DNA of 64,000 nucleotides, from assembly GCA_964019135.1 (NCBI GenBank), contig CAXHSH010000416.1, positions 962,701 through 1,026,700 on the forward strand, read 5' to 3'. This document shows positions 411-26,628 of the stretch, piece after piece. The DNA comes from Arenicola marina. Its lineage: Eukaryota; Annelida; Polychaeta; Arenicolidae. The position numbers and the translations under genes are program-made. Under the pieces are notes generated by a model. The model was not told where the DNA came from and did no database searches. It saw only the letters and a list, made by a program, of their open reading frames with translations. How positions within the stretch are numbered: position 1 is the stretch's first letter; each line of letters begins with the position of its first letter.

Positions 411-524
411 TTTGTTTTCGCAACCATTTTTTTTAACATCTATTCTGTTTTTCTCTCTCCATTCTTTTCCATTCGTCTCCACTACCTTCAAGCACCAGCA
501 ATTGTTACACGTTTCGCCTTAAAG

Positions 525-767: not shown

Positions 768-1394
768 TGTTTGGTCAGATTACTACCTGTTGCATTAGTC
801 TGTGGCGTATTGAATCATGCTTGCGGATGTTACGGGTGCGTTATTCGGTCGACCTCATCACATGCTGATTCGCTGGGTGTCTAATTTGCGGCGGGTCGCG
901 CTAGGGGGGGGGGGAGGTGTCATACTTTGGGTTGTAGCTAAAGATATCGCACGTCAACCTATGTGCTGTTTGTTTTTAAAGTAACGTTGGATACTTGCTC
1001 TATCTTTTCCATTTCACGCGCCCCATATAGTCAAACATGGGTACCGGTTTTTTTCTAGCATGGGTTTGAAAATTTGGGTTATTGCTTTACGTAACATGGG
1101 GGTGGTGGTTTCTATTGGTATGTAACTTCCAGCCTCGTCGCATCCCAAACTTTACCACGATGGCAATCATCGCTTCACATATAACATTCCCATGATTCTC
1201 TATTAATATTAACCTATGGGAAAATGTCATGGGTGATCAAATTCCAGTGCATCATTAGACCGAAGCCAGCGGCCATGGCAAACGACTACAGTGATAAACT
1301 CCCATACCGCCTAGTTCAACCCGCGTCAGATAATGCTCCAGAACATGAACATATCTCTTACTTCTAGGGGGACGTTTTCCCGTGGAACTCATTA
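768..1394. other. Conserved unit spacer between small ORF and minisatellite
   Basis: Recurs at 7096-7719 and 12109-12733, and is split by the LTR element in unit 4 (17866-18156 and 25103-25435). It contains a G homopolymer of varying length (near 903, 7232, 12246) that is interrupted in unit 4. I see no gene or RNA structure in it. Its right end begins the minisatellite through a degenerate monomer near 1380. Confidence 0.5.
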
Positions 1395-5268: not shown

Positions 5269-6328
5269 TACATGTCACCAAATCTACTCAGTAATACTCG
5301 ACAAAAGATTGATTTTAGACCCATATTGAGGTTACGCACCAAATGGTGGCATCCCCATGATAAGTAATGGAAAGCCCTTCTTTTCAACCCCATGCTATTA
5401 CTAAATTGATAACCAAGTTTGCATATTTCTGCCATATGAAACATTATACAGTTATAAAATAACTTGATTTTAATACCAAATAAAGCATAGGTTGACGTTG
5501 CAGTTGTTTAGCTATTCACCCCCCCCCCCCCCCCACCCCTCCCACTCACCAGAACAATCCTCCAGCTTTAACACGTCACAGGGACCCACGGAATCTGCGT
5601 CTAATGCGGTCGACACACGCCAGAACGTCCCCACGAAGGAATAAATACGGCACAATTTTGCCAAACCTGTATCAGTCTGCCCATTCAATAGTAACAAAAT
5701 CAGCCCCCTCTCAGACATAGGCAACTGACATGCATATAACTGTTATATACGACCATATTAGAGGCCCTACTTGACACTATATACTTTTCGATGCGCAACT
5801 TATCGATGTGTGACGTTAACAGGGTAACTTACCTATCTGCACCAGTTTATCTCTGTCCTGATCGCATCGTTACAGTCTCAAGAGACGGATGTCCGCACAC
5901 ATCTGTCCACTACCTGTGTGCTGAATCTAATGAGAAAATAGAGAATTTGGCGCCGTCAGTTGCTGCGACCACGCCGCCTATCGCCCCGGGTTACGCGAGA
6001 CGTCATTGAAACAAACGTTTCCCAAGCAGCGCATCAAACAAGGCAAAATACATGAAATATCACTCAGAGACTGTAAGAAAACGCGATGATCACCGGCAGA
6101 GATTTATTTATTTATGTCATCAACTGGCAACAGATCTTAAAGTATATATGCTGCTGTCGTCTAAAGAAGGTACTGTCATCCAAATACACTCCGGTTCTAC
6201 ATAAAAGAAAAGAGTATGGGCAACACACAGGTTGTATCAAGTATATTCGTATCGTAGATATGTCGCAACATTTAAATCGCTTGAACGCTTTAAAATATAA
6301 GACGTATCCAAGTTCCTTGTAAAGATGA
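5269..6328. other. Conserved unit spacer after the minisatellite, with unproven ORFs
   Basis: The same segment recurs at 10294-11341 and 16068-17111. It contains a C homopolymer of varying length (5519, 10543 and 16313), a plus ORF of about 67-72 codons starting MCDVNRVTYL (5791-6009, 10819-11022, 16589-16792) and a minus ORF of 104 codons (6112-6426, 11125-11439, 16895-17209, 26008-26322). On the minus strand, good GTAAGT or GTGAGT donor-like sites lie near 5826 and 5546. None of the ORFs resembles a known family. Substitutions between copies often change the residue, so I see no sign of selection for protein. Confidence 0.4.
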
Positions 6329-6619
6329 CAGATTTTAGCACAACCCGTTGGCAATATCCAGCCCAAGCCGTACGATAGCGCCGCCTGGCGAGTGTGGTCT
6401 GAAGCAGCTAGAGAGTCCGTGTTCACGGCGCGTGCGAATCATGAGCCTCGCTTGATATAGTTGGTAAACTGTCTGGCCTCAATCGTAGACAACCCATCCC
6501 AATAGCACGCATTGTTGGACACAAATGGACTATCTGATAACTATTTAAAGATTATCCCACATCTTGAGGCAACAGTAGACGAGGTCAGGTATATAACGCC
6601 GTCCCAAACCATATACAGT

Positions 6620-6738
6620 GCCTGCGGCCATACCACGTTGAAAGCACCGGTTCTCGTCCGATCCCCGTAGTTAAGCAACGTTGGGCCCGGTTAGTACTAG
6701 GATGGGTGGCCGCCTGGGAATACCGGGTGTTGTGGACT
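6620..6738 (+). rRNA. 5S ribosomal RNA gene, unit 2
   Basis: Same sequence as the unit 1 copy except two visible changes: GGCCGCCTGGG in place of GGCCGTCTGGG (which restores the usual animal sequence) and GTTGTGGACT at the 3' stem. The upstream TATA-like box is conserved at 6589-6597. Confidence 0.92.
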
Positions 6739-6852
6739 TTTGTTTTCGCAACCATTTTTTTTAACATCTATTCTGTTTTTCTCTCTCCATTCTTTTCCAT
6801 TCGTCTCCACTACCTTCAAGCACCAGCAATTGTTACACGTTTCGCCTTAAAG

Positions 6853-7023
6853 ATGTCCTCAAATAGTAAATTCACATTCACTATAAATGGCCCTTATGAT
6901 ATACATCTTTGCCTTGTCACAGGGACGGTTGATGGGGACGTTATGACTACATGCGCTCCAGGTTACACATCAATAGGTCGTCGTGGCTGCGTAGACAAGT
7001 ATATACCGTCAAGTAGTGCCTAA
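6853..7023 (+). pseudogene. Small ORF downstream of 5S, unit 2, prematurely stopped
   Basis: Same start and body as the 80-residue ORFs of units 1 and 3. A change from GCCTTAAATA to GCCTAAAATA creates a stop after the residues SSSA. The unit 4 copy (17634-17699) is shorter still because of a deletion near 17690. If the ORF were a gene, half of the copies would be broken. Confidence 0.25.
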
Positions 7024-7719
7024 AATATGGTCGTACATCAGGGTTATATGGTTACTGGTTATTTCTTTCTTTGCATATGTAGTTTCTTTTACTAATGTTT
7101 GGCCAGATTACTACCTGTTGCATTAGTCTGTGGCGTATTGAATCATGCTTGCGGATGTTACGGGTGCGTTGTTCGGTCGACCTCATCACATGCTGATTCG
7201 CTGGGTGTCTAATTTGCGGCGGGTCGCGCTAGGGGGGGGGGGGTGTCATACTATGGGTTGTAGCTAAAGATATCGCACGTCAACCTATGTGCTGTTTGTT
7301 TTTAAAGTAAAGTTGGATACTTGCTCTATCTTTTCCATTTCCCGCGCCCCATATAATCAAACATGGGTACCGATTTTTTTCTAGCATGGGTTTGAAAATT
7401 TGGGTTATTGCATTACGTAACATGAGGGTGGTGGTTTCTATTGGTATGTAACTTCCAGCCTCGTCGCATCCCAAACTTTACCACGATGGTAATCATCGCT
7501 TCACATATAACATTCCCATGATTCTCTATTAATATTAACCTATGGGAAAATGTCATGGGTGATCAAATTCCAGTGCATCATTAGACCGAAGCCAGCGGCC
7601 ATGGCAAACGACTACAGTGATAAACTCCCATACCGCCTAGTTCAACCCGCGTCAGATAATGCTCCAGAACATGAACATATCTCTTACTTCTAGGGTGACG
7701 TTTTCCCGTGGAACTCATT

Positions 7720-10293
7720 AGGGCGTCCAGTGACCATGGTGACGTATTCTGGATCCCATGGAACCGTCCACTGACCATGGTGAAGACGTATTCTGGATCC
7801 CATGGCACCGGCCAGCGATCATCGTGACGTTGCATTCTGGATCCACTCAGCATGGGGATATCGCATTCTGGATCCCATGCCACCGCCCAGTGACCATGAT
7901 GACGTGGTATTCTGGATCCCATGACACCGCCAGCGACCATGGTGACGACGCATTCTGGATCCAGTGACCATGGAGATATCGCATTCTGAATCCCATAGCA
8001 CCGCCAAGTGACCATGGTGACGTCGTATCCTGGATGCCATGGCACCGCCAGTGACCATGGTGACGTCGTATTCTGGATTTCATGGCATCTCTCAGTGACC
8101 ATGCTGATGTCGTATTCTGGATCCGATGGCGACACGTAGGGACCACCGTGACGTCGTATTATGGATCCCTTGTCGCCGCCCAGTGACCATGGTGACGTGG
8201 TATTCTGGATCCCATGACACCGCCAGCGACCATGGTGACGTCGCATTCTGGATCCAGTGACGATGGTGAAGTCGTATTCTGGATTTCACTGCATCTCTCA
8301 GTGACCAAGGTGAAGTCGTATGCTGGATGCCATGACACCACCCAGTGACCAAGGTGACGTCGTATGCTGGATGCCATGACACCGCCCAGTGACCAAGGTG
8401 ACGTCGTATTCAGGATCCCGTGGAACACCCCTGTGACCATGGTGACGTCGTATTCTGGACCCCAAAGCACCGCCCAGTGACCAAGGTGGCGTCGTATTCT
8501 TCGTACCATGACACCGCCCAGTGACCAAGGTGACGTCGTATGCTGGATGCCATGACACCGCCCAGTGACCAAGGTGACGTCGTATTCAGGATCCCGTGGA
8601 ACACCCCTGTGACCATGGTGACGTCGTATTCTGGACCCCAAAGCACCGCCCAATGACCAAGGTGGCGTCGTATTCTTCGTACAATGACACCGCCCAGCGT
8701 CCATGGTGATGTCGTATTCTGGATCCGATGGCGACACCCAGGGAACAGCGTGACGTCGTATTATGGATCCCTTGCCCCCGCCCAGTGAGCATGGTGATTT
8801 CGTATTCCGGATCCCATTGAACCCCCGAGTGACCATGGTGACGTCAAATTCTGGATCCAACGGTGCCGCCCAGTGACCATGGTGAAGTCGTATTCTGGAT
8901 CCCATGGAACCGTCCACTGACCATGGTGAAGACGTATTCTGGATCCCATGGCACCGGCCAGCGACCATCGTGATGTCGCATTCTTGGTCCCATGGCGGTG
9001 ATATCGCATTCTGGATCTCATGGCACCGCCCAGTGACCATAGTGACGACGTATTCTGGATCCCATGGCATCTCCAGTGACCATGGTGACGTTGCATTCTG
9101 GATCCAGTCAGCATGGGGATATCGCATTGTGGATCCCATGCCTCCGCCCAGTGATCATGGTGACGTGGTATTCTGGATCCCATGACACCGCCAGCGACCA
9201 TGGTGACGTCGCATTCTGGATCCAGTGACCATGGAGATATCGCGTTCTGAATCCCATAGCACCGCCCAGTGACCATGGTGACGTCGTATCCTGGATGCCA
9301 TGGCACCGCCAGTGACCATGGTGACGTCGTATTCTGGATTTCATGGCATCTCTCAGTAACCATGCTGATGTCGTATTCTGGATCCGATGGCGACTCGTAG
9401 GGACCACCGTGACGTCGTATTATGGATCCCTTGTCGCCGCCCAGTGAGCATGGTCATTTCGTATTCCGGAACCCATTGAACCCCAAAGTGACCATGGTGA
9501 CGTCATATTGTGGATCCAATGGTGCTGCCCAATAAGCATGGTGAAGTATTCTGGATCCCATGATACCGCCCAGTGACCATGGTGACGTGGTATTCTGGAT
9601 CGCATGACACCGCTCAGTGACCATGGTGACGTCGCATTCTGGATCCAGTGACCACGGGGATATCGCATTCTGAATCCCATGACACCGCCCGGTGACTATG
9701 GCGGCGTGGTATTCTGGATCCCTTGTCACCGCCCAGTGACCATGGTGAAGTCGTATTCTGGATTTCACTGCATTTCTCAGTGACCAAGGTGAAGTCGTAT
9801 GCTGGATGCCATGACACCGCCCAGTGACCAAGGTGACGTCGTATGCTGGATGCCATGACACCGCCCAGTGACCAAGGTGACGTCGTATTCAGGATCCCGT
9901 GGAACACCCCTGTGACCATGGTGACGTCGTATTCTGGACCCCAAAGCACCGCCCAATGACCAAGGTGGCGTCGTATTCTTCGTACAATGACACCGCCCAG
10001 CGTCCATGGTGATGTCGTATTCTGGATCCGATGGCGAGCCCCAGGAAACAGCGTGACGTCGTATTATGGATCCCTTGCCCCCGCCCAGTGAGCATGGTGA
10101 TTTCGTATTCCGGATCCCATTGAACCCCCGAGTGACCATGGCGACGTCATATTCTGGATCCAACGGTGCCGCCCAGTGACCATGGTGAAGTCGTATTCTG
10201 GATCCCGTGTTACCGCCCAGTGACCATGGTGAAGTCGTATTCTGGATCCATTGTCACCGCCCAGCGTCCATGGGGATTTCGTATTCTAGATTA
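7720..10293. repeat. Hierarchical minisatellite array 2
   Basis: About 2.6 kb of the same monomer family. The 176-bp repetition (8410 and 8586) and the 1479-bp repetition (8298 and 9777, 8410 and 9889) are both present, with fewer higher-order copies than array 1. This difference explains most of the 1.3-kb length difference between units 1 and 2. Confidence 0.92.
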
Positions 10294-11632
10294 CATGTCA
10301 CCAAATCTACTCAGTAATACTCGACAAAAGATTGATTTTAGACCCATATTGAGGTTACGCACCAAATGGTGGCATCCCCATGATAAGTAATGGAAAGCCC
10401 TTCTTTTCAACCCCATGCTATTACTAAATTGATAACCAAGTTTGCATATTTCTGCCATATGAAACATTATACAGTAATAAAATAACTTGATTTTAATACC
10501 GAATAAAGCATAGGTTGACGTTGCAGTTGTTTAGCTATTCAATCCCCCCCCCTCCCACTCACCAGAACAATCCTCCAACTTTAACACGTCACAGGGAATC
10601 ACGGAATCTGCGTCTAATGCGGTCGACACACGCCAAAACGTCCCCACGAAGGAATAAATACGGCACAATTTTGCCAAACGTGTATCAGTCTGCCCATTCA
10701 ATAGTAACAAAATCAGCCCCCTCTCAGGCATAGGCAACTGACATGCATATAACTGTTATATACGACCATATTAGAGGCCCTACTTGACACTATATACTTT
10801 TCGACGCGCAACTTATCGATGTGTGACGTTAACAGGGTAACTTACCTACCTGCACAAGTGTATTTCTGTCCTGATCGCATCGTTACAGTCTCAAGAGACG
10901 GATGTCCACACACATCTGTCCACTACCTGTGTGCTGAATCTGATGAGAAAATAGAGAATTGGGCGCCGTCAGTTGCTGCGACCACGCCGCCTATCGCCCC
11001 GGGTTACGCGAAACGTCATTGAAACAAACGTTTCCCAAACAGCGCATCAAACAAGGCAAAATACATGAAATATCACTTAGAGACTGTAAGAAAACGCGAT
11101 GATCACCGGCAGATATTTATTTATTTATGTCATCAACTGGCAACAGATCTTAAAGTATATATGCTGCTGTCGTCTAAAGAAGGTACTGTCATCCAAATAC
11201 ACTCCGGCTCTACATAAAAGAAAAGAGTATGGGCAACACGCATGTTGTATCAAGTATATTCGTATCGTAGATATGTCGCAACATTTAAATCGCTTGAACG
11301 CTTTAAAATATAAGACGCTTCCAAGTTCCTTGTAAAGATGACAGATTTTAGCACAACCGGTTGGCAATATCCAGCCCAAGCCGTACGATAGCGCCGCCCG
11401 GCGAGTGTGGTCTGAAGCAGCTAGAGGGTCCGTGTTCACGGCGCGTGCGAATCATGAGCCTCGCTTGATATAGTTGGTAAACTGTCTGGCCTCAATCGTA
11501 GACAACCCATCCCAATAGCACGCATTGTTGGACACAAATGGATTATCTGATAACTATTTAAAGATTATCCCACATCTTGAGGCAACAGTAGACGAGGTCA
11601 GGTATATAACGCCGTCCCAAACCATCTACAGT

Positions 11633-11751
11633 GCCTGCGGCCATACCACGTTGAAAGCACCGGTTCTCGTCCGATCCCCGTAGTTAAGCAACGTTGGGCC
11701 CGGTTAGTACTAGGATGGGTGGCCGTCTGGGAATACCGGGTGTTGTAGACT
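11633..11751 (+). rRNA. 5S ribosomal RNA gene, unit 3
   Basis: Appears identical to the unit 1 copy over the whole gene, including the GGCCGTCTGGG variant, with the same TATA-like box about 30 bp upstream and the same T-rich 3' flank. Confidence 0.92.
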
Positions 11752-11865
11752 TTTGTTTTCGCAACCATTTTTTTTAACATCTATTCTGTTTTTCTCTCTC
11801 CATTCTTTTCCATTCGTCTCCACTACCTTCAAGCACCAGCAATTGTTACACGTTTCGCCTTAAAG

Positions 11866-12108
11866 ATGTCCTCAAATAGTAAATTCACATTCACTATAAA
11901 TGGCCCTTATGATATACCTCTTTGCCTTGTCACAGTGACGGTTGATGGGGACGTTATGACTACATGCGCTCCAGGTTACACATCAATAGGTCGTCGTGGC
12001 TGCGTAGACAAGTATATACCGTCAAGTAGTGCCTTAAATATGGTCGTATATCAGGGTTATATGGTTACTGGTTATTTCTTTCTTTGCATATGTAGTTTCT
12101 TTTACTAA
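11866..12108 (+). CDS. Small ORF downstream of 5S, unit 3 (unrecognised)
   Basis: Second intact 80-residue copy of the unit 1 ORF, identical at the protein level as far as I can compare. The near identity across units reflects homogenisation of the whole unit, so it is not independent evidence for coding. Confidence 0.22.
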   Translation: MSSNSKFTFTINGPYDIPLCLVTVTVDGDVMTTCAPGYTSIGRRGCVDKYIPSSSALNMVVYQGYMVTGYFFLCICSFFY

Positions 12109-12733
12109 TGTTTGGTCAGATTACTACCTGTTGCATTAGTCTGTGGCGTATTGAATCATGCTTGCGGATGTTACGGGTGCGTTATTCGGTCGACCTCATC
12201 ACATGCTGATTCGCTGGGTGTCTAATTTGCGGCGGGTCGCGCTAGGGGGGGGGGGGGGAGGTGTCATACTATAGGTTGTAGCTAAAGATATCGCACGTCA
12301 ACCTATGTGCTGTTTGTTTTTAAAGTAACGTTGGATACTTGCTCTATCTTTTCCATTTCCCGCGCCCCATATAGTCAAACATGGGTACCGGTTTTTTTCT
12401 AGCATGGGTTTGAAAATTTGGGTTATTGCTTTACGTAACATGGGGGTGGTGGTTTCTATTGGTATGTAACTTCCAGCCTCGTCGCATCCCAAACTTTACC
12501 ACGATGGTAATCATCGCTTCACATATAACATTCCCATGATTCTCTATTAATATTAACCTATGGGAAAATGTCATGGGTGATCAAATTCCAGTGCATCATT
12601 AGACCGAAGCCAGCGGCCATGGCAAACGACTACAGTGATAAACTCCCATACCGCCTAGTTCAACCCGCGTCAGATAATGCTCCAGAACATGAACATATCT
12701 CTTACTTCTAGGGGGACGTTTTCCCGTGGAACT

Positions 12734-15700
12734 CATTACGGCGTCCAGTGACCATGGTGACGTCGTATTCTGGATCCCATGGAACCGTCCACTGACCATG
12801 GTGAAGACGTATTATGGATCCCATGGCATCGCCAGTGACCATTGTGACGTTGCATTCTGGATCCAGTCAGCATGGGGATATCGCATTGTGGATCCCATGC
12901 CACCGCCCAGTGACCATGGTGACGTGGTATTCTGGATCCCATGACACCGCCAGCGACCATGGTGACGTCGCATTCTGGATCCAGTGACCATGGAAATATC
13001 GCATTCTGAATCCCATAGCACCGCCCAGTGACCATGGTGACGTCGTATCCTGGATGCCGTGGCACCGCCAGTGACCATGGTGACGTCGTATTCTAGATTT
13101 CATGGCATCTCTCAGTAACCATGCTGATGTCGCATTCTGGATCCGATGGCGACACGTAGGGACCACCGTGACGTCGTATTATGGATCCCTTGTCGCCGCC
13201 CAGTGAGCATGGTCATTTCGTATTCCGGAACCCATTGAACCCCAAAGTGACCATGGTGACGTCATATTGTGGATCCAATGGTGCTGCCCAATAAGCATGG
13301 TGAAGTATTCTAGATCCCATGGTACCGCCCAGTGACCATGGTGACGTGGTATTCTGGATCCCATGACACCGCCCGGTGACCATGGTGACGTCGCATTCTG
13401 GATCCAGTGACCATGGGGATATCGCATTCTGAATCCCATGACACCGCCCGGTGACTATGACGGCGTGGTATTCTGGATCCCTTGTCACCGCCCAGTGACC
13501 ATGGTGAAGTCGTATTCTGGATTTCACTGCATCTCTCAGTGACCAAGGTGAAGTCGTATGCTGGATGCCCTGACACCACCCAGTGACCAAGGTGACGTCG
13601 TATGCTGGATGCCATGACACCGCCCAGTGACCAAGCTGACGTCGCATTCAGGATCCCGTGGAACACCCCTGTGACCATGGTGACGTCGTATTCTGGACCC
13701 CAAAGCACCGCCCAGTGACCAAGGTGGCGTCGTATTCTTCGTACCATGACACCGCCCAGTGACCAAGGTGACGTCGTATGCTGGATTCCATGACACCGCC
13801 TAGTGACCAAGGTGACGTCGTATTCAGGATCCCGTGGAACACCCCTGTGACCATGGTGACGTCGTATTCTGGACCCCAAAGCACCGCCCAATGACCAAGG
13901 TGGCGTCGTATTCTTCGTACAATAACACCACCCAGCGTCCATGGTGATGTCGTATTCTGGATCCGATGGCGACACCCAGGGAACAGCGTGACGTCGTATT
14001 ATGGATCCCTTGCCCCCGCCCAGTGAGCATGGTGATTTCGTATTCCGGATCCCATTGAACCCCCGAGTGACCATGGTGACGTCATATTCTGGATCCAACG
14101 GTGCCGCCCAGTGACCATGGTGAAGTCGTATTCTGGATCCCATGGAACCGTCCACTGACCATGGTGAAGACGTATTCTGGATCCCATGGCACCGGCCAGC
14201 GACCATCGTGATGTCGCATTCTTGGTCCCATGGCGGTGATATCGCATTCTGGATCTCATGGCACCGCCCAGTGACCATAGTGACGACGTATTCTGGATCC
14301 CATGGCATCGCCAGTGACCATGGTGACGTTGCATTCTGGATCCAGTCAGCATGGGGATATCGCATTTTGGATCCCATGTCACCGCCCAGTGACCATGGTG
14401 ACGTGGTATTCTGGATCCCATGACACCGCCAGCGACCATGGTGACGTCGCATTCTGGATCCAGTGACCATGGAGATATCGCATTCTGAATCCCATAGCAG
14501 CGCCCAGTGACCATGGTGACGTCGTATCCTGGATGCCATGGTACCGCCAGTGACCATGGTGACGTCGTATTCTAGATTTCATGGCATGTCTCAGTGACCA
14601 TGCTGATGTCGTATTCTGGATCCGATGGCGACACGTAGGGACCACCGTGACGTCGTATTATGGATCCCTTGTCGCCGCCCAGTGAGCATGGTCATTTCGT
14701 ATTCCGGAACCCATTGAACCCCAAAGTGACCATGGTGACGTGGTATTCTGGATCCAGTGACCATGGGGATATCGCATTCTGAATCCCTTGTCACCGCCCA
14801 GTGACCATGGTGAAGTCGTATTCTGGATTTCACTGCATCTCTCAGTGACCAAGGTGAAGTCGTATGCTGGATGCCCTGACACCACCCAGTGACCAAGGTG
14901 ACGTCGTATGCTGGATGCCATGACACCGCCCAGTGACCAAGGTGACGTCGTATTCAGGATTCCGTGGAACACCCCTGTGACCATGGTGACGTCGTATTCT
15001 GGACCCCAAAGCACCGCCCAGTGACCAAGGTGGCGTCGTATTCGTCGTACCATGACACCGCCCAGTGACCAAGGTGACGTCGTATTCAGGATCCCGTGGA
15101 ACACCCCTGTGACCATGGTGACGTCGTATTATGGACCCCAAAGCACCGCCCAATGACCAAGGTGGCGTCGTATTCTTCGTACAATGACACCGCCCAGCGT
15201 CCATGGTGATGTCGTATTCTGGATCCGATGGCGAGCCCCAGGGAACAGCGTGACGTCGTATTATGGATCCCTTGCCCCCGCCCAGTGAGCATGGTGATTT
15301 CGCATTCCGGATCCCATTGAACCCCCCGAGTGACCATGGTGACGTCATATTCTGGATCCAACGGTGCCGCCCAGTGACCATGGTGAAGTCGTATTCTGGA
15401 TCCCATGGAACCGTCCACTGACCATGGTGAAGACGTATTCTGGATCCCATGGCACCGGCCAGCGACCATCGTGATGTCGCATTCTTGGTCCCATGGCGGT
15501 GGTATTGCATTCTGGATCTCATGGCACCGCCCAGTGAACATAGTGACGACGTATGCTGGATCCCATGGCATCGCCAGTGACCATGGTGACGTTGCATTCT
15601 GGATCCAGTCAGCATGGGGATATCGCATTGTGGATCCCATGCCACCGCCCAGTGACCATGGTGACGTGGTATTCTGGATCCCATGACACCGCCAGCGACC

Positions 15701-16067
15701 ATGGTGACGTCGCATTCTGGATCCAGTGACCATGGAGATATCGCATTCTGAATCCCATAGCACCGCCCAGTGACCATGGTGACGTCGTATCCTGAATGCC
15801 ATGGCACCGCCAGTGACCATGGTGACGTCGTATTCTGGATTTCATGGCATCTCTCAGTTACCATGCTGATGTCGTATTCTGGATCCGATGGCGACACGTA
15901 GGGACCACCGTGACGTCGTATTATGGATCCCTTGTCGCCGCCCAGTGAGCATGGTGAAGTCGTATTCTGGATCCCGTGTTACCGCCCAGTGACCATGGTG
16001 AAGTCGTATTCTGGATCCATTGTCACCGCCCAGCGTCCATGGGGATTTCGTATTCTAGATTACATGT
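12734..16067. repeat. Hierarchical minisatellite array 3
   Basis: About 3.3 kb of the same monomers. The 176-bp step is kept (13648 and 13824), but the order of blocks in 14650-15950 is rearranged and shortened relative to arrays 1 and 2. This suggests unequal exchange or internal deletion within the higher-order repeat. Confidence 0.91.
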
Positions 16068-17401
16068 CACCAAATCTACTCAGTAATACTCGACAAAAGA
16101 TTGATTTTAGACCCATATTGAGGTTACGCACCAAATGGTGGCATCCCCATGATAAGTAATGGAAAGCCCTTCTTTTCAACCCCATGCTATTACTAAATTG
16201 ATAACCAAGTTTGCATATTTCTGCCATATGAAACATTATACAGTAATAAAATAACTTGATTTTAATACCGAATAAAGCATAGGTTGACGTTGCAGTTGTT
16301 TAGCTATTCAATCCCCCCCCCCTCCCACTCACCAGAACAATCCTCCAGCTTTAACACGTCACAGGGACCCACGGAATCTGCGTCTAATGCGGTCGACACA
16401 CGCCAAAACGTCCCCACGAAGGAATAAATACGGCACAATTTTGCCAAACGTGTATCAGTCTGCTCATTCAATAGTAACAAAATCAGCCCCCTCTCAGACA
16501 TAGGCAACTGACACGCATATAACTGTTATATACGACCATATTAGAGGCCCTACTTGACACTATATACTTTTCGACGCGCAACTTATCGATGTGTGACGTT
16601 AACAGGGTAACTTACCTACCTGCACCAGTGTATTTCTGTCCTGATCGCATCGTTACAGTCTCAAGAGACGGATGTCCACACACATCTGTCCACTACCTGT
16701 GTGCTGAATCTAATGAGAAAATAGAGAATTTGGCGCCGTCAGTTGCTGCGACCACGCCGCCTATCGCCCCGGGTTACGCGAGACGTCATTGAAACAAACG
16801 TTTCCCAAGCAGCGCATCAAACAAGGCAAAATACATGAAATATCACTCAGAGACTGTAGGAAAACGCGATGATCACCGGCAGAGATTTATTTATTTATGT
16901 CATCAACTGGCAACAGATCTTAAAGAATATATGCTGCTGTCGTCCAAAGAAAGTACTGTCATCCAAATACACTCCGGCTCTACATAAAAGAAAAGAGTAT
17001 GGGCAACACGCAGGTTGTATCAAGTATATTCGTATCGTAGATATGTCGCAACATTTAAATCGCTTGAACGCTTTAAAATATAAGACGCTTCCAAGTTCCT
17101 TGTAAAGATGACAGATTTTAGCACAACCCGTTGGCAATATCCAGCCCAAGCCGTACGATAGCGCCGCCTGGCGAGTGTGGTCTGAAGCAGCTAGAGAGTC
17201 CGTGTTCACGGCGCGTGCGAATCATGAGCCCGCTTGATATAGTTGGTAAACTGTCTGGCCTCAATCGTAGACAACCCATCCCAATAGCACGCATTGTTGG
17301 ACACAAATGGATTATCTGATAACTATTTAAAGATTATCCCACATCTTGAGGCAACAGTAGACGAAGTCAGGTATATAACGCCGTCCCAAATCATCTACAG
17401 T

Positions 17402-17520
17402 GCCTGCGGCCATACCACGTTGAAAGCACCGGTTCTCGTCCGATCCCCGTAGTTAAGCAACGTTGGGCCCGGTTAGTACTAGGATGGGTGGCCGCCTGGG
17501 AATACCGGGTGTTGTAGACT
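17402..17520 (+). rRNA. 5S ribosomal RNA gene, unit 4
   Basis: Full-length copy with GGCCGCCTGGG and an intact 3' end at TTGTAGACT. The upstream box is kept, although the 5' flank has small substitutions. This unit carries the LTR retrotransposon about 640 bp downstream. Confidence 0.91.
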
Positions 17521-18156
17521 TTTGTTTTCGCAACCATTTTTTTAACATCTATTCTGTTTTTCTCTCTCCATTCTTTTCCATTCGTCTCCACTACCTTCAA
17601 GCACCAGCAATTGTTACACGTTTCGCCTTAAAGATGTCCTCAAATAGTAAATTCACATTCACTATAAATGGCCCTTATGATATACATCTTTGCCTTTGAT
17701 TGATGGGGACGTTATGACTACATGCGCTCCAGGTTACACATCAATAGGTCGTCGTGGCTGCGTAGACAAGTATATACCGTCAAGTAGTGCCTTAAATATG
17801 GTCGTATATCAGGGTTATATGGTTATTGGTTATTTCTTTCTTTGCATATGTAGTTTCTTTTACTAATGTTTGGCCAGATTACTACCTGTTGCATTAGTCT
17901 GTGGCGTATTGAATCATGCTTGCGGATGTTACGGGTGCGTGGTTCGGTCGACCTCATCACATGCTGATTCGCTGGGTGTCTAATTTGCGGCGGGTCGCGC
18001 TAGAGGGACGGGGGGTGTCATACTATGGGTTGTAGCTAAAGATATCGCACGTCAACCTATGTTCTGTTTGTTTTTAAAGTAAAGTTGGATACTTGCTCTA
18101 TCTTTTCCATTTCCCGCGCCCCATATAGTCAGACATGGGTACCGATTTTTTTCTAG

Positions 18157-19198
18157 TGTTACGACCGTAACCTGTCAGGATGGCCGAAAATAAAATAAAA
18201 TCTTTTATAAGGGAAAGAAACAAAAACTAACTATTCACAACCAGTGTCAGTCTCCCACCATTGGCGGCATTTATTCAAACATTCTTGTCAAAGCAGGTAC
18301 GAGGGACAATATAAAAATAAAATACTCTGCCTGTAACCAGACCCCCTAGTCTGGCATAGACTAACTAAAAGGAAAATCCCCTAAGCTCAGATAAGAATTA
18401 AGAATTAAGAACCATAAGAATTAAGATAGACCAGTGGAAAAATGCAGGGGTTAGTGGGAGAGATTCTATTTAGGAAACATCACCAGTCAGAGGGCTGAGA
18501 GGCTGTCATCATCTAAGTTACATCGTCATTCGGTCCTCGGGACATCGGGTCATCGTGGTTATCGTGGTCATCGTGGTATCGTGGTATCGTGGTCATCGTG
18601 GTCATCGTGGTCATCGTGGTTAATCAAAAAAAAGGGGGTGGGGGGGTAAATAGGGGCACTAACCGACAGGGTCTGCCCTGCTTTTCGTCTCTATCTCCCC
18701 GAATGTGTGAGTCTAGAGAGTGTCCCTTTATACCCGCCACACCGGAAGACGTACACAGAAATAATCTATATCTCCCTTTTCGCGTTACTCCTCAACCCAA
18801 GAGTTTAAGTATGCAATGCAGGTTTCTGGCTTATATTAAAACTTTAAAGAATATCAGACAAACATCAACAGGACCAGAAACTAGTGCCTTATACATAAAC
18901 GCGGCTTTTGTTGGCAGCGAGGTTATAAAACTTTGGTAATTATCATAATGACTAAAACGAGGCCGCGCGCGATAAACAACAATCATGGCCGCCCCGAGAG
19001 GTAAACATTACCAAAAACGTGACAAATTGGTTGGTACCATCCCAAATAAGAATAGACAAGTTAAAAAGACAACAGAAAGTGACAATATGGCCTGCTACAA
19101 GGTAGGTAAACAGTTTAGTTGGGGTTGACAGCGTACACAAAGGGATAATTTTACAAAAATACCTGATTTCCGCGGGGACCATAATGGGAGGCGTCACA
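18157..19198 (-). repeat. LTR (3' LTR of the pol-less element)
   Basis: 1042 bp with TG...CA ends. Contains a tandem run of a 9-bp ATCGTGGTC-type repeat (18550-18620), whose copy number differs from the other LTR, and a G-rich tract at 18636-18647. Near its + strand start (18174-18187) lies GTCAGGATGGCCGA, the first 14 nt of animal tRNA-Leu. Confidence 0.93.
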
Positions 19199-19225
19199 AT
19201 GCCCCCTGCTTAAGTGTTAGGCGTC
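19199..19225 (-). promoter_or_regulatory. Polypurine tract of the pol-less element
   Basis: Immediately before the 3' LTR the minus strand reads AAGCAGGGGGCAT and then the LTR start TGTGACG. A second similar tract (AAGTAGGGGGGCA on the minus strand, near 19372-19384) sits about 170 bp upstream, within a diverged repeat of the same neighbourhood. This may be an internal polypurine tract or an old local duplication. Confidence 0.7.
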
Positions 19226-19472
19226 CTCGCCAACACTAAACTAACACCACAAAAATATTATACAAAATCTCACAAGTAATGAACCTGCAGCGTTGCAAGC
19301 GACGAGTACTTAGATGCAGATACATGTCAAAATACACCCTTACACGGGATTAGAATAGGGACCGTTATATTGCCCCCCTACTTAATGGTTTGGCATCATC
19401 GCCAAACAGTTATATACAACAATACAAACTCATATATTGCACCATATTCAGCTGAAAAGAAAAGTACATTAA

Positions 19473-20744
19473 TCACATGTTCCTCTGCTTCCGGCGTGGC
19501 TCGTTGAGCTGTCGAGGTCCTCCATGGTCTGGGCTGACGCCAGGGTGTTTGTTCTTGACGGCGGTGCGTCCTCCGCAGTCTGGGTTGACGGTAGATCCTC
19601 TCGACGGGGTTGCGTCTATGGACATGTGTCCTCCGCGGTCTTCCGGGCGGCAGCGGCTGTCCTCTGGGGTCCAGCACTCAACATTAGAAGTTGGACGTCG
19701 GATGGTTCCGCCAATGACCCACCAGAGAGTGCATGGCGCGAGAACAACCAGTAGGTCTCTCAACTCTTTGTCGGCAGCCACAGTAAACATCGTTGTCATC
19801 ACCATCGCAATCAACACCACCAACCCATGGTAAGGTGGCACCTGTAAGCCATCGGCCAGCGGAGCTGTGCAGATGCGTTGCACCTGGCCTGGTCTGCAGT
19901 CGAGTGACCCCTCGCCAGTGAAAGTCTCATCTTGGGATATCACATCAGGAGGCTTGGCATCAGGACGTTCCTTCTCTGGGAACTTCACATTGGGTGACTT
20001 CACACGAGGGGACTTCGCATCAGGGGACTTCACAATGGGCGATTCCACAGCAGGCGACTTCACAAGCGACATCAGGACAGGCAACTTCACAACTGAGGAC
20101 TTCACTTCCTGAGACTTCACATCAGGGGACCTAATATCTGGGGACTTCTTTTCGGGCGATTCCACAACAAGCGACATCAGGACAGGCAAGTTCACATCTG
20201 GGGACTGCAAATCTGGGGACTTTACTTCCTGGGACTTCACTTCGGGGGACTCCACTTCAGGCGATTCCACAACAGGCGACTTCGCAACAGGAGACTGCAC
20301 ATCAGGGGACTTCACTTCGGACGATTTAACAACAGGCGACTTCACTTCGGGTGATACAACAACAGGCGACTTCACTCCAAGCGACTTCACTTCGGGCGAC
20401 TCCTCGTCAAGTGACTTCTCGTCAGGTGACCTCTCATCAGGGGACTTCACAGCAGGAGAATTCAGAACAGGCGACCTCTCGTCAGGTGACTTCTCGTCAG
20501 GTGACCTCTCATCAGGGGACTTCACAGCAGGAGAATTCAGAACAGGCGACCTCTCGTCAGGTGACTTCTCGTCAGGTGACCTCTCATCAGGGGACTTCAC
20601 AGCAGGAGAATTCAGAACAGGCGACCTCTCGTCAGGTGACTTCTCGTCAGGTGACCTCTCATCAGGGGACTTCACATCGGGGGACTTTTCCCCGGTCACG
20701 GCGGTTACGGGTTTTGGGTACGTGGTCCCGTACTCATGAACCAT
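19473..20744 (-). CDS. ORF2 of the LTR element: SPxxK-repeat protein with hydrophobic segments
   Basis: 423 codons, beginning 53 nt after the gag stop and in another frame. Residues about 18-275 are an almost continuous run of pentapeptides of the form SPxxK or SPxxR (SPDEK, SPDER, SPAVK, SPEVK). This is a highly charged, probably disordered chain rich in proline-directed kinase sites. Residues about 305-351 hold two hydrophobic stretches (GLVVLIAMVMTTMF and LLVVLAPCTLWWVIGG), which look like membrane segments or a hairpin. The C-terminus is basic. It resembles no pol domain. It occupies the place where some Gypsy elements carry an envelope-like gene, but I see no signal peptide or ectodomain. 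Expression might use reinitiation or splicing: the frame overlaps the gag end by only about 27 nt and no standard slippery site is visible there. Function unknown. Confidence 0.7.
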   Translation of the reverse strand: MVHEYGTTYPKPVTAVTGEKSPDVKSPDERSPDEKSPDERSPVLNSPAVKSPDERSPDEKSPDERSPVLNSPAVKSPDERSPDEKSPDERSPVLNSPAVKSPDERSPDEKSLDEESPEVKSLGVKSPVVVSPEVKSPVVKSSEVKSPDVQSPVAKSPVVESPEVESPEVKSQEVKSPDLQSPDVNLPVLMSLVVESPEKKSPDIRSPDVKSQEVKSSVVKLPVLMSLVKSPAVESPIVKSPDAKSPRVKSPNVKFPEKERPDAKPPDVISQDETFTGEGSLDCRPGQVQRICTAPLADGLQVPPYHGLVVLIAMVMTTMFTVAADKELRDLLVVLAPCTLWWVIGGTIRRPTSNVECWTPEDSRCRPEDRGGHMSIDATPSRGSTVNPDCGGRTAVKNKHPGVSPDHGGPRQLNEPRRKQRNM

Positions 20745-20797
20745 CCGCTGCGGGCCTGGTGACGTCGGGACCGGTTGTTGGCCAGCACGGCCGGTCC

Positions 20798-23245
20798 CTA
20801 GCAGTTTGACGGGTGCCCGTAATTAACCGCAGGACGGTCCGACATCTGGGTACGAGAGGTACGAGGTACGAAGTTATCCTGGTAGTATGGCCTTGTCGGT
20901 TGATTGGCATTTCGGGGGCAGTTTCTGGCGAAATGTCCCGGCTGACCACATCCGTAGCAGGCGAATCTGTCCTCCGTCCCCTGCTGGGTGGAACGACCCT
21001 CCCTAGGTTGTGACTGGGTAGGCCGGGCACCAGCAAGTCCAAGATGATGGGTAACTCTCCTGAGTTCCTGTTGTAACTCGGCAATCACTTTGCGATTCAC
21101 ATCTCCCTCCAGAGATATCGCACGGGCTGACTCGTCTGGCCAGCCTGTCCCCTGAGACTTGGTTGAACCCATGTTAGACTTCTCCGGGATACGGGCTATT
21201 CTGTGACTGCCTGTATCCTGCTCAGAGGCATCTTCTTCGAAACGGCTCACCCGTACTGCCTTCCTCGACCGGGGTGCTCCGTCGGCTGGGTTAAGGCGAT
21301 GACGCGTATCCAGGAAGTTAACTGACTCATACACGGCCTCATCGATGTCCCGGGGTTCTTTAATGTATTCGACGTGGAAGGTCACTTCGTTGTCGGTCAG
21401 TCCGTCCAAGAAACGTCGGAGAAGGTCTTCTTGGCGCGTGGCGCAGTCCCGTCGTGGGTACGCCTTGTCGTACAAGCGTTTCAGCTCGGCTGCGTACGTT
21501 TCCACAGACTCTCCGGTCTTCTGGCTCCTGTTACTAAATTTAGCGGCATATGATTTAGAAGTCTCAATTATCCTGAATCTATTCCCCAACTCGCCAACGA
21601 GAACTGTAAAATTGTTCCGCACCTTCCGCGGGAGCTGCCCGTATGCGAAATCGCCAGCCACACCCTGCAGCTTTGGGAGAAGTTCATCTAGTCTGTCATC
21701 TAGATTCCACCTCTGTCGATCAGCAACATCTTGGAACCGGTTAAACCAGACTTCCCAGGCTTCACGGCCAGTGAATGGGGGCAATTTCGACCCCCTGGAA
21801 GGAGTGTCGCGGTGCTTTGGCGAAGCGGGCCAATCTATCGCATCATCCTCGTCACTTGCAGACTCCCCCGATGTTGAGGGTGATTCACGTCTCCTGCGGA
21901 TAGAGATTTTTTTCTTTTGGTGCCGGACCTTTGTGTTGATTGGGGCCGCAGTCTCCCGCCTTGCTTGGGCACGGTCATAGTCCGCCGCGGTGGGGGTCCG
22001 ATGGTGCTCCAAGGGATTACCGGGAACCATCGTGGGGGTCTGGTCGGACATCGCCTGGGTGGGCACAAGGTGCGCTTGGTTATCCGCCATGGCCTCTCGG
22101 TAGATCGGAGGGGTAATCCCGGTCATCAACATCGGCTCCTGGCGCGGCGCCATGGGGACGTGGGATCGCATCTCCAGGGCGTAAGCAGGCATCGGTGGAC
22201 CCTGATAAACCTGCTGGACCGGGTCGGGCCCCACCAAGGGTGCTCCAGACGTCCAGGAGGCGGGCTGGAAACGCATCTGTGGGGCATAGGCAGGCATCTG
22301 TGGATCCTGATAGCTCTGCTGGGATTGGTGGGTCACCATCATGGGTGCTTGTGACGTCACGGCGGAGGGCTGGGGACGCATCGCTGGCGCAAACGCAGGC
22401 ATCGGTGGAGCTTGATAGCTCTGCTGGGGTGGTTGGGTCACCATCATGGGTCCTTGTGACGTCATGGCGGAGGGCTGGGGACGCATCGCAGGGGCAACCG
22501 CAGGCATCTGTGGAGCCTGAGGTGTCTGCTGGGCCGGGTTGGCCACCATCATGGGTGCTTGTGACGTCAGTGCGGAGGGCTGGGGACGCATCGCTGGCGC
22601 AAACGCAGGCATCAGTGGAGCTTGATAGCTCTGCTGGGGTGGGTGGGTCACCATCATGGGTGCTTGTGACGTCACGGCGGAGGGCTGGGGACGCATCGCT
22701 GGCGCAAACGCAGGCATCGGTGGAGCTTGATAGCTCTGCGGGGATGGGTGGGTCACCATCATGGGTGCTTGTGACGTCACAGCGGAGGGCTGGGGACGCA
22801 TCGCTGGCGCATGGGCAGACACCGGGGTTTGCAGGGTCGGGCTTGTCACCGAAACGGGGGCTTGAGGTGTCAACGGGTGAATCTGAGGCCGCAACACTGG
22901 GGAATAGGCCGACATGGCTGATGCTGGCTGAACCAGCTGGGTGAGCCCGGTCATCAACATCGGTGCTTGAGGCGTCAACGTGGGGAGCTGGGGGCTCATC
23001 ATTGGGGTTGACACCGCACTGGAGACAGGAGCTTGTGCCTCAGACTCCAAGGAGCTATCCTGAGCAGTATCTCTGGGAGGGGTGGATTTACGCCAGACAT
23101 CAGTTTTAACAGCTGAACTCTCCCCCTCGGACAGAGATAATTGATGGTTGGTACGAGACCTCAACCCTTCACGTATGTTTCGCTGCCCGTGGGACTCCAT
23201 CATTGGTATATATAAAGCTGCCAAATTGTCCAGTCCCTGCTGCAA
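20798..23245 (-). CDS. gag: Gag polyprotein of the pol-less LTR element
   Basis: 815 codons, uninterrupted. Residues about 140-335 are a Pro/Gln/Met-rich region built from tandem repeats of about 36 residues (108 bp in DNA), with motifs such as MRPQPSAVTSQAPMMV. Residues about 485-650 are a retrotransposon capsid domain (LPPFTGREAWEVWFNRFQD start; ETYAAELKRL and LLRRFLDGL motifs). Near residue 760 is a CCHC zinc knuckle, CYGCGQPGHFARNC, for RNA binding. The protein would assemble particles around element RNA in the cytoplasm. The repeated N-terminal part is unusual for Gypsy gag. The exact start is uncertain, since MESHGQRN about 15 codons in is an alternative. Confidence 0.9.
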   Translation of the reverse strand: MQQGLDNLAALYIPMMESHGQRNIREGLRSRTNHQLSLSEGESSAVKTDVWRKSTPPRDTAQDSSLESEAQAPVSSAVSTPMMSPQLPTLTPQAPMLMTGLTQLVQPASAMSAYSPVLRPQIHPLTPQAPVSVTSPTLQTPVSAHAPAMRPQPSAVTSQAPMMVTHPSPQSYQAPPMPAFAPAMRPQPSAVTSQAPMMVTHPPQQSYQAPLMPAFAPAMRPQPSALTSQAPMMVANPAQQTPQAPQMPAVAPAMRPQPSAMTSQGPMMVTQPPQQSYQAPPMPAFAPAMRPQPSAVTSQAPMMVTHQSQQSYQDPQMPAYAPQMRFQPASWTSGAPLVGPDPVQQVYQGPPMPAYALEMRSHVPMAPRQEPMLMTGITPPIYREAMADNQAHLVPTQAMSDQTPTMVPGNPLEHHRTPTAADYDRAQARRETAAPINTKVRHQKKKISIRRRRESPSTSGESASDEDDAIDWPASPKHRDTPSRGSKLPPFTGREAWEVWFNRFQDVADRQRWNLDDRLDELLPKLQGVAGDFAYGQLPRKVRNNFTVLVGELGNRFRIIETSKSYAAKFSNRSQKTGESVETYAAELKRLYDKAYPRRDCATRQEDLLRRFLDGLTDNEVTFHVEYIKEPRDIDEAVYESVNFLDTRHRLNPADGAPRSRKAVRVSRFEEDASEQDTGSHRIARIPEKSNMGSTKSQGTGWPDESARAISLEGDVNRKVIAELQQELRRVTHHLGLAGARPTQSQPREGRSTQQGTEDRFACYGCGQPGHFARNCPRNANQPTRPYYQDNFVPRTSRTQMSDRPAVNYGHPSNC

Positions 23246-24031
23246 ACGTGCCTCTCTTCCGCCTCCAACCAGTAATTTTCAACGACAGGTGCCAACGTAC
23301 ATCAATTGTCAACAAGGAGCATCAGGGGTCACCAGGTACATCAATGGTTATTACTCAGGTTTCAGCAAATACATCAACTGCCACCTCAGTACATCACATG
23401 TCCATAAACCACATCAAGGGTCATCTCAGTACATCACAGGTCTATGAGCCACATCACAGGTCATCAAATACATCAGTTGTCATCCAAGTACATCATAAGT
23501 CAACGAGTCACATCAGAGGTCATCAGTACATCACAGGTCTATGAGCCACATCGCAGGTCATCAAATACATCAGTTGTCATCCAAGTACATCATAAGTCAC
23601 ATCAGAGGTCATCAGTACATCACAGGTCATCAAATACAATTTCCTCTCAAATCCACCACATTAGGACAACTCTGGCTCATTGAGTACATCAAATGTCATC
23701 AATGGATATCAGGGTCATCAGATATTTCCTCAAATCCACCACATCAGGAAACATATGGGTTATCCAGTACATCAGGAGTCATCGCTGAACATCAGGATCA
23801 TCAGATTTCGACCAACATGAATCAAAGGAAGTGTCATCATATTCGTCAAAGGTCATCGTGGAACATCAGAGTTAGTGAGGTAAATCAAAATAATAAAAAA
23901 AAAATCTATGGCTGATTACATCACTAAACTGCCTCAGAATTACAGTTCTGCATCCAGCAAACAAGAAAATTAAAAGAAATAATAACCACCAGGCAGTGGA
24001 GCACGACCCTTGGATCCAGTATTAAAACCAG
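23246..24031 (-). other. Long repetitive leader of the LTR element
   Basis: Between primer site and gag lies about 790 bp of short imperfect repeats (plus strand CATCA and GTCATC words, for example a 60-80-bp unit repeated at 23440-23640). It would be the 5' leader and packaging region. Small plus-strand ORFs here merely translate the repeats. Confidence 0.6.
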
Positions 24032-24049
24032 ATCCCACTTCTGACACCA
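24032..24049 (-). promoter_or_regulatory. Primer binding site complementary to tRNA-Leu
   Basis: The minus strand reads TGGTGTCAGAAGTGGGAT, beginning 6 nt inside the 5' LTR. It is the perfect complement of an animal tRNA-Leu 3' end (ATCCCACTTCTGACA plus CCA). This fixes the element's orientation as minus and explains how its reverse transcription starts. Confidence 0.9.
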
Positions 24050-24055
24050 AAATAT

Positions 24056-25098
24056 TGTTACGACCGTAACCTGTCAGGATGGCCGAAAATAAAATAAAAT
24101 CTTTTATAAGGGAAAGAAACAAAAACTAACTATTCACAACCAGTGTCAGTCTCCCACCATTGGCGGCATTTATTCAAATATTCTTGTCAAAGCAGGTACG
24201 AGGGACAATATAAAAATAAAATACTCTGCCTGTAACCAGACTCCCTAGTCTGGCATAGACTAACTAAAAGGAAAATCCCCTAAGCTCAGATAAGAATTAA
24301 GAATTAAGAACCATAAGAATTAAGATAGACCAGTGGAAAAATGCAGGGGTTAGTGGGAGAGATTCTATTTAGGAAACATCAACAGTCAGAGGGCTGAGAG
24401 GCTGTCATCATCTAAGTTACATCGTCATTCGGTCCTCGGGACATCGGGTCATCGTGGTTATCGTGGTCATCGTGGTATCGTGGTCATCGTGGTCATCGTG
24501 GTCATCGTGGTCATCGTGGTTAATCAAAAAAAAGGGGGTGGGGGGGTAAATAGGGGCACTAACCGACAGGGTCTGCCCTGCTTTTCGTCTCTATCTCCCC
24601 GAATGTGTGAGTCTAGAGAGTGTCCCTTTATACCCGCCACACCGGAAGACGTACACAGAAATAATCTATATCTCCCTTTTCGCGTTACTCCTCAACCCAA
24701 GAGTTTAAGTATGCAATGCAGGTTTCTGGCTTATATTAAAACTTTAAAGAATATCAGACAAACATCAACAGGACCAGAAACTAGTGCCTTATACATAAAC
24801 GCGGCTTTTGTTGGCAGCGAGGTTATAAAACTTTGGTAATTATCATAATGACTAAAACGAGGCCGCGCGCGATAAACAACAATCATGGCCGCCCCGAGAG
24901 GTAAACATTACCAAAAACGTGACAAATTGGTTGGTACCATCCCAAATAAGAATAGACAAGTTAAAAAGACAACAGAAAGTGACAATATGGCCTGCTACAA
25001 GGTAGGTAAACAGTTTAGTTGGGGTTGACAGCGTACACAAAGGGATAATTTTACAAAAATACCTGATTTCCGCGGGGACCAAAATGGGAGGCGTCACA
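24056..25098 (-). repeat. LTR (5' LTR of the pol-less element)
   Basis: 1043 bp, almost identical to the other LTR. On the minus strand it lies upstream of gag and should hold the promoter. The tRNA-Leu-like 14-mer is at 24073-24086 on the plus strand, so the element RNA carries its complement inside U5. Confidence 0.93.
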
Positions 25099-25435
25099 CT
25101 AGCATGGGTTTGAAAATTTGGGTTATTGCATTACGTAACATGGGGGTGGTGGTTTCTATTGGTATGTAACTTCCAGCCTCGTCGCATCCCAAACTTTACC
25201 ACGATGGTAATCATCGCTTCACATATAACATTCCCATGATTCTCTATTATTATTAACCTATGGGAAAATGTCATGGGTGATCAAATTCCAGTGCATCATT
25301 AGACCGAAGCCAGCGGCCATGGCAAACGACTACAGTGATAAACTCCCATACCGCCTAGTTCAACCCGCGTCAGATAATGCTCCAGAACATGAACATATCT
25401 CTTACTTTTAGGGTGACGTTTTCCCGTGGAACTCA

Positions 25436-25889
25436 TTAGGGCGTCCAGAGGCCATGGTGACGTCGTATTATGGATCCCATGGAACCGTCCACTGACCATG
25501 GTGAAGACGTATTCTGGATCCCATGGCACCGGCCAGCGACCATCGTGATGTCGCATTCTTGGTCCCATGGCGGTGATATCGCATTCTGGATCTCATGGCA
25601 CCGCCCAGTGACCATGGTGACGTTGCATTATGGATCCAGTCAGCATGGGGATATCGCATTTTGAATCCCATAGCACCGCCCAGTGACCATGGTGACGTCG
25701 TATCCTGGATCCCATGGCACCGCCAGTGACCATGGTGACGTCGTATTCTGGATTTTATGGCATATCTCAGTGACCATGCTGATGTCGTATTCTGGATCCC
25801 ATGGCGACACGTAGGGACCACCGTGACGTCGTATTATGGATCCCTTGTCGCCGCCCAGTGAGCATGGTCATTTCGTATTCCGGAACCCA
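25436..25889. repeat. Minisatellite array 4, residual
   Basis: Only about 450 bp of the monomers remain, downstream of the inserted LTR retrotransposon. The array then jumps directly to sequence that in other units lies about 0.7 kb beyond the array (ATACGTCATTGAAAC). One deletion removed both. Confidence 0.88.
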
Positions 25890-26515
25890 TCCGATACGTC
25901 ATTGAAACAAACGTTTCCCAATCAGCGTATCAAGCAAGGCAAAATACATGAAATATCACTGAGAGACTGTAAGAAAACGCGATGATCACCGGCAGAGATT
26001 TATTTATTTATGTCATCAACTGGCAACAGATCTTAAAGTATATATGCTGCTGTCGTCTAAAGAAGGTACTGTCATCCAAATACATTCCGGCTCTACATAA
26101 AAGAAAAGAGTATGGGCAACACGCAGGTTGTATCAAGTATATTCGTATCGTAGATATGTCGCAACATTTAAATCGCTTGAACGCTTTAAAATATAAGACG
26201 CTTCCAAGTTCCTTGTAAAGATGACAGATTTTAGCACAACCGGTTGGCAATATCCAGCCCAAGCCGTACGATAGCGCCGCCTGGCGAGTGTGGTCTGAAG
26301 CAGCTAGAGAGTCCGTGTTCACGGCGCGTGCGAATCATGAGCCTCGCTTGATATAGTTGGTAAACTGTCTGGCCTCAATCGTAGACAACCCATCTCAATA
26401 GCACGCATTGTTGGACACAAATGGATTATCTGATAACTATTTAAAGATTATCCCACATCTTGAGGCAACAGTAGACGAGGTCAGGTATATAACGCCGTCC
26501 CAAACCACCTACAGT

Positions 26516-26628
26516 GCTTACGGCCATACCACGTTGAAAGCACCGGTTCTCGTCCGATCCCCGTAGTTAAGCAACGTTGGGCCCGGTTAGTACTAGGATG
26601 GGTGGCCGCCTGGGAATACCGGGTGTTG
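26516..26628 (+). rRNA. 5S ribosomal RNA gene, unit 5, 3'-truncated
   Basis: Starts GCTTACGGCC, differing from the GCCTGCGGCC of the other copies, and matches through GGGAATACCGGGTGTTG. It then leaves the 5S sequence about 6 nt before the normal 3' end and runs into unrelated DNA. The 3' strand of stem I is lost, so this copy is probably non-functional. It marks the right boundary of the array. Confidence 0.85.

Follow-up and report, generated by a model that had tools for sequence, protein, structure and literature searches.

How retroelements choose and hold one tRNA among many is a long-standing question. It is raised in a particular form by a locus of the polychaete Arenicola marina. The window analysed here, a stretch of 64,000 nucleotides (contig CAXHSH010000416.1), contains an LTR element of the Ty3/gypsy type on the minus strand at 18153 to 25102. 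Its primer binding site (PBS) matches the 3' end of tRNA-Leu, and a separate segment upstream, inside the LTR, is complementary to the 5' end of the same tRNA. Is this second segment a further contact for the primer, or is it a trace of something else? Comparison with other families of the same genome suggests that the segment probably does serve as a second primer contact, extended beyond the PBS, with the 5' acceptor strand of the tRNA.

The element and its primer tRNA

The two LTRs of the window element are about 1.04 kb long each and 99.4% identical. The 5' LTR (24056 to 25098, minus strand) reads TGTGACGCC...GGTCGTAACA, its ends having been read directly, with the GGTCGTAACA end at 24056. 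The 3' LTR lies at 18157 to 19198 on the same strand. Copies of a target-site duplication, CTAG, were read from the sequence at 18153 to 18156 on the left and at 25099 to 25102 on the right, and a likely polypurine tract (GCAGGGGGCAT on the minus strand, 19199 to 19212) adjoins the 3' LTR. The LTR pair, the short CTAG duplication, the tRNA PBS and the purine tract are all hallmarks of Ty3/gypsy elements.

Two long open frames, both on the minus strand, lie between the LTRs. The first (20798 to 23278; 826 aa from stop to stop) encodes a gag with a Retrotrans_gag-like region and a CCHC zinc knuckle. The zf-CCHC profile matches above its cut-off (E 9.4e-06), and Retrotrans_gag falls slightly under its own (E 1.1e-04, 22.8 bits, cut-off 24.1). 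This gag has 443 relatives, and most of the 120 listed carry PF03732 or PF00098. The second frame (19473 to 20822) encodes Ser/Pro-rich repeats and contains no pol domain that could be found. As protease, reverse transcriptase, RNase H and integrase domains were all absent from these two frames, the window copy is gag-bearing and probably non-autonomous, and its family as a whole looks like a gag-bearing non-autonomous family. In a related family, termed B, the pol domains examined, protease, reverse transcriptase and RNase H, were found. The gag frame of the window copy contains 35-aa repeats and the second frame 5-aa Ser/Pro-rich ones; elsewhere in the genome, copies with longer gag frames occur, the longest being 1246 aa. 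The element is inserted within a large tandem array of approximately 5-kb units with 44-bp sub-repeats, which forms its surroundings (1 to 18156 and 25099 to 26628). Farther along the window, the minus strand carries the remnant of a second Ty3/gypsy-type element (58452 to 62214), with CCHC, protease and integrase domains and no match to a reverse transcriptase domain in the three frames scanned.

The two-part match to tRNA-Leu that had been predicted from the sequence of this locus is real. Read on the minus strand, the PBS, TGGTGTCAGAAGTGGGAT, occupies 24049 to 24032 and is separated by a 6-nt spacer from the end of the 5' LTR at 24056. It is complementary at every position to the last 18 nt, CCA included, of the host tRNA-Leu(CAG), as the original prediction had proposed for tRNA-Leu in general. 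The upstream segment, TCGGCCATCCTGAC, occupies 24086 to 24073 and is complementary to nt 1-14 of both tRNA-Leu(CAG) and tRNA-Leu(CAA); a second copy matching it in sequence lies in the 3' LTR (18174 to 18187, minus strand). The gap between segment and PBS is 23 nt, and the distance of forty that had been given holds solely when counted from start to start. A likely polyadenylation signal, AATAAA (24169 to 24174, minus strand), sits 125 nt upstream of the PBS with the segment downstream of it, and the segment is therefore most likely in U5. A possible small hairpin, GUUAC-GGUC-GUAAC, is predicted between the segment and the LTR end (24057 to 24070, minus strand). The whole leader folds no better than its shuffles (z 0.70).

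The tRNA genes themselves were sought in the host genome (867 Mb). A pattern for the 3' part of tRNA-Leu(CAG), the exact partner of the 18-nt PBS, gave 64 matches, of which 59 lie in a single array on C20 and one in the tRNA-Leu(CAA) array on C17. ARAGORN called tRNA-Leu(cag) at four of five fetched sites, the fifth (L140) being no tRNA. The first 19 nt of tRNA-Leu(CAA) likewise gave 64 matches, all on C17; this intron-bearing gene was named from its sequence, ARAGORN having called none of the five loci tried. The two arrays, of about 60 matches each, span C17:13028446-13134547 (CAA) and C20:2509555-2596532 (CAG). Comparison of these genes with U5 and the PBS showed that both isoacceptors begin with GTCAGGATGGCCGA, the exact complement of the segment, and the 14 nt therefore do not discriminate between the two. 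The two-part match is to the right tRNA, but the tRNA-Leu(CAA) named in the original prediction is better given as tRNA-Leu(CAG), the best partner of the PBS in this host; the commonest tRNA-Leu(CAA) gene form that was read forms 17 of the 18 pairs.

Recurrence of the complement in the host genome

The 18-mer PBS occurs exactly 210 times in the host, and its reversed control not once. One hundred of these sites were listed, all of which were taken as loci; further copies were added from other searches, among them those for the paired motif, which favour families A (that of the window), B and C. Families B and C are also within the unbiased list of PBS sites, and the row of a diverged relative of the window family, A2 (L055), comes from the paired-motif search instead. 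Clustering of 140 site occurrences (95 distinct) gave 29 clusters. Five of them, comprising tandem arrays and a duplicated context, were excluded from the ten-segment, duplex-energy and PBS self-pairing tests, leaving 24, some with two rows. The rows number 28 in the first complement test (two from tandem contexts), 29 in the ten-segment test, 27 in the duplex-energy test, from which L070 (of the family of L035) and L017 were dropped, and 13 in the PBS self-pairing test. The 5' sequence of tRNA-Leu(CAA) served as reference in the early complement tests and the shuffles, and tRNA-Leu(CAG) in the duplex-energy tests. One tandem array of about 49-bp units (L104, C5:24547000-24548300) has 19 units with the exact 18-nt Leu PBS, and shorter arrays with the PBS were also seen (L023-L026, L036-L038).

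Relatives were also looked for outside the host. A 17-mer of the PBS found a single locus in IMG/VR, in an apparently protein-coding stretch of a viral contig, and none of the 19 IMG/VR stretches that matched a pattern from the gag alignment was confirmed as a gag relative. The 18-mer was present in five stretches of prokaryote genomes, which indicates how rarely it arises by chance. As no usable relatives were obtained there, all comparison families come from one genome, that of the host.

Within that genome, CATCCTGAC lies 12-42 nt upstream of TGGTGTCAGAAG in 21 places, namely 18 copies of the window family, the diverged relative L055 and two copies of another family. At 43-73 nt there are five more matches, from one further family. 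Reversed versions of these patterns gave no match in the host. The complement of the tRNA 5' end is thereby found in three families that differ in the sequence between the two parts: A, with the complement of nt 1-14 and a gap of 23 nt; B (L013), with GCCATCCTGAC, the complement of nt 1-11, and a gap of 48 nt; and C (L047), also with GCCATCCTGAC for nt 1-11 and a gap of 31 nt. Weaker or partial complements are present in D, B2, L035/L070 and L096. The pairing of D involves mainly nt 11-20 and fits tRNA-Leu(CAA) better than tRNA-Leu(CAG), and L035/L070 match nt 3-14 at 11 of 12 positions. In L047, shortly past the complement of nt 1-11 and upstream of the PBS, AGACCACT is the complement of nt 14-21 of tRNA-Leu(CAA), possibly by chance.

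To assess the strength of these matches, the 120 nt preceding the PBS were dinucleotide-shuffled 10,000 times, and the shuffles that reached the observed match to the tRNA-Leu(CAA) 5' sequence were counted. The match of the window family was reached by none, bearing out the expectation that 14 nt would hardly agree by chance. One shuffle reached the match of B and one that of C, 15 that of A2 and 26 that of D (L012); the counts were 11 for L035, 13 for L070, 228 for L096, 437 for L087 and 979 for B2 (L102). When ten segments of tRNA-Leu(CAA), in linear numbering, were compared across 29 rows, the complement of nt 1-22 reached p < 0.02 in eight rows, the sense strand of nt 66-87 in two, the complement of nt 38-59 in one, and the seven others in none. 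No row of the 29 gave p < 0.02 for a T-arm contact (complement of nt 50-71 in linear tRNA-Leu(CAA) numbering, a stretch that takes in the T arm's 5' strand).

RNA duplex energies gave a similar distribution. Against the 120 nt upstream, nt 1-22 of tRNA-Leu(CAG) reached p <= 0.02 in 8 of 27 rows (A, A2, B, B2a, C, D, L035 and L093), related rows being partly dependent on one another. Two of the eight are borderline, p rising with 1000 shuffles to 0.027 for A2 and 0.022 for B2a. In B2 the signal is weak, and of the two copies only one shows it: p is 0.016 and 0.206 in the duplex test, 0.022 and 0.18 in the 1000-shuffle rerun. None of the eight control combinations exceeded one row of 27. There were none for the upstream 120 nt against nt 23-44 or against nt 40-61, and none for nt 1-22 against the next 130 nt upstream or against the 120 nt downstream. 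For the next upstream stretch, nt 23-44 gave none and nt 40-61 one (A); for the downstream stretch, nt 23-44 gave one (E, p 0.004) and nt 40-61 none. By both the shuffle and the duplex tests, the leader is complementary to a part of the primer tRNA other than the 18 nt at its 3' end. Both complementarities are present, they recur in several families, and they are concentrated in U5 and, within the tRNA, on its 5' portion.

The gag clade and the origin of the match

The families with the complement are largely related through gag. In a gag-core search in which 150 of 474 candidates were scored, identity to the window gag showed a sharp gap: full-length clade members have at least 57%, and others, short fragments aside, about 35% or less. 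The clade includes A, B, B2, C, D and E, the cores of the last five being 58-63% identical to that of the window; c12 (L091/L094) is included through a degraded gag fragment of 57% beside L094, nothing having been found within 2 kb of L091. Further clade families, away from any of the listed PBS sites, lie on contigs C1-C8, for example at C4:25154314, C5:11804506 and C1:32157184. A gag-core tree of ten rows separates the clade from two outside families, its inner branching being unresolved and its bootstrap values unsettled. Five of the seven clade families are positive in the duplex test (p <= 0.02), with B2 counted on one of its two copies. Among the 17 other rows, two are positive, L035 and L093, a difference with Fisher p 0.009; "other" here denotes rows whose clade membership is not demonstrated, gag being unread for several of the 17. 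Relatives with the same PBS and an unrelated U5, which the original prediction had named as evidence against itself, do occur in part. The clade members E (L034) and c12 lack the complement, as 15 of the 17 other rows lack a significant one, and at the same time the complement recurs in families other than that of the window. On the sequences compared, the 5'-end complement is common in one gag clade and is not obligatory there.

This distribution could also have arisen by descent, if the ancestor of the clade had matched the tRNA 5' end by luck and some families had retained the match without any function. The confinement of the positives A, B, C, D and B2 to a single gag clade agrees with such a history, as do the two clade members without a match. 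It is nevertheless unlikely, because gag has diverged to about 60% and the U5 flanks are near-random in the aligned pairs (A-C, D-C and B-B2 hardly align beyond the motif and the LTR end), yet 11-14 nt have stayed exact in A, B and C. The differing gaps of 23, 31 and 48 nt and the positive L035/L070, outside the clade, also speak against it. The window family itself is represented by eight distinct sequences, which are nearly identical and too alike to reveal constraint on the segment.

Less probable still is a capture of the segment from the tRNA. Here the enzyme, while synthesising the plus strand, would have switched to the tRNA as template, copied it from nt 14 back to nt 1, run off the 5' end and returned to U5, leaving a trace that may be functionless. 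In A, B, C and L096 the match stops exactly at tRNA nt 1, as a run-off would give; but a pairing would likewise stop there, nothing lying beyond, and several separate captures of one short piece would be needed, each with the same orientation and each on the upstream side of the PBS. An equally improbable explanation is that the segment pairs with the PBS of its own RNA and masks it. Such pairing is conceivable because the acceptor stem is self-complementary, and five consecutive pairs (CUGAC/GUCAG) can form in A, B and C, but the 120 nt upstream are unremarkable against the PBS in all 13 rows (p 0.15-0.99), pairing with tRNA nt 1-22 is remarkable in most positive families, and the match takes in nt 8-14, for which the acceptor part of the PBS offers no partner; with no unusual upstream-PBS pairing in these rows, self-pairing was rejected as the cause of the segment.

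A possible second hold on the primer

The preferred reading, a second contact of U5 with the primer, can be set out as a sequence of steps. Annealing of the PBS to the last 18 nt of tRNA-Leu would open the acceptor and T stems, which the structure of the tRNA requires; in PMC11181671, the primer tRNA of the HIV complex is described as partly unwound. The opening would free nt 1-7, which form the 5' strand of the acceptor stem, along with the neighbouring nt 8-14, and the U5 segment could then capture the freed strand. In the window family, both ends of the tRNA would then be base-paired with the genomic RNA, with the 23-nt loop between them, and the tRNA could therefore not refold its acceptor stem. 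Placed side by side, the U5 segment and the PBS would constitute the complement of the tRNA read across its joined ends, and the two helices would cross. RNAcofold does not represent crossing helices, so its energies do not decide between the states. Reverse transcriptase, extending the tRNA from its 3' end, would first copy the loop and afterwards have to dislodge the 5' end of the primer itself. We infer that the pairing forms and that it aids primer selection, annealing or packaging. That the RNA would hold both strands of the acceptor stem, as the original prediction had it, is consistent with the two complementarities.

Contacts between primer and template beyond the PBS have been described in several systems. 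In HIV-1, the primer activation signal (PAS) lies upstream of the PBS, and by analogy the PAS and PBS helices would cross as proposed here. PMC3185550 gives the PAS as 'downstream', yet places it at nt 123-130. As PMC3185550 and PMC11181671 describe, the HIV-1 PAS and the avian retrovirus U5-TpsiC contact both involve a part of the leader other than the PBS, which pairs with a strand of the tRNA that annealing to the PBS has released, as is predicted for the window leader. Their target is the T arm (PMC3185550) over about 8 nt, whereas here 11-14 nt would pair with the other released strand, at the tRNA 5' end, that is, with the 5' strand of the acceptor and the D stem. Extended tRNA contacts are also described for Ty1 and Ty3, as the original prediction had noted. 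Ty1 likewise has complementarity to its primer, tRNA-iMet, past the PBS, which contributes to initiation and packaging; unlike in the window family, its additional sites follow the PBS on the 3' side, and their partners are the T and D arms (PMC4974528). Ty3 has a tRNA site in two parts, as this Ty3-type element does, but its 5' part is 8 nt long, and its second part, of 24 nt, lies about 4.8 kb away in the 3' U3; the T and D arms are involved (PMC5371799, PMC11381356). In the portions of the literature consulted, largely open-access papers, the extra contacts involve the T, D or anticodon arms, and no description of a U5 complement to the 5' end of the primer tRNA was found. The present comparisons hint that a site in U5 for the 5' end of the tRNA adds to the known extended primer-template contacts, as a way of holding the primer that those papers leave undescribed.

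More tentatively, this Ty3/gypsy clade may prime with a tRNA clamped at both ends in a near-circle. The enzyme would then have to displace the 5' end of the primer when copying U5, and on a change of tRNA the 5' segment would follow the primer. The resulting prediction is that the U5 segment changes along with the primer tRNA. Since a U5 segment matching the 5' end of the tRNA is seen in several families, it offers a simple sequence test for any animal genome.

A minor observation concerns L140 (C177:165500-165660), the site at which no tRNA was called. It is a non-tRNA copy of GGGTTCGAATCCCACTTCTGACACCA and reads like an element PBS that has grown from 18 to about 26 nt by taking in part of the T arm, as though the copying of the plus strand had overrun its usual stop in the tRNA.
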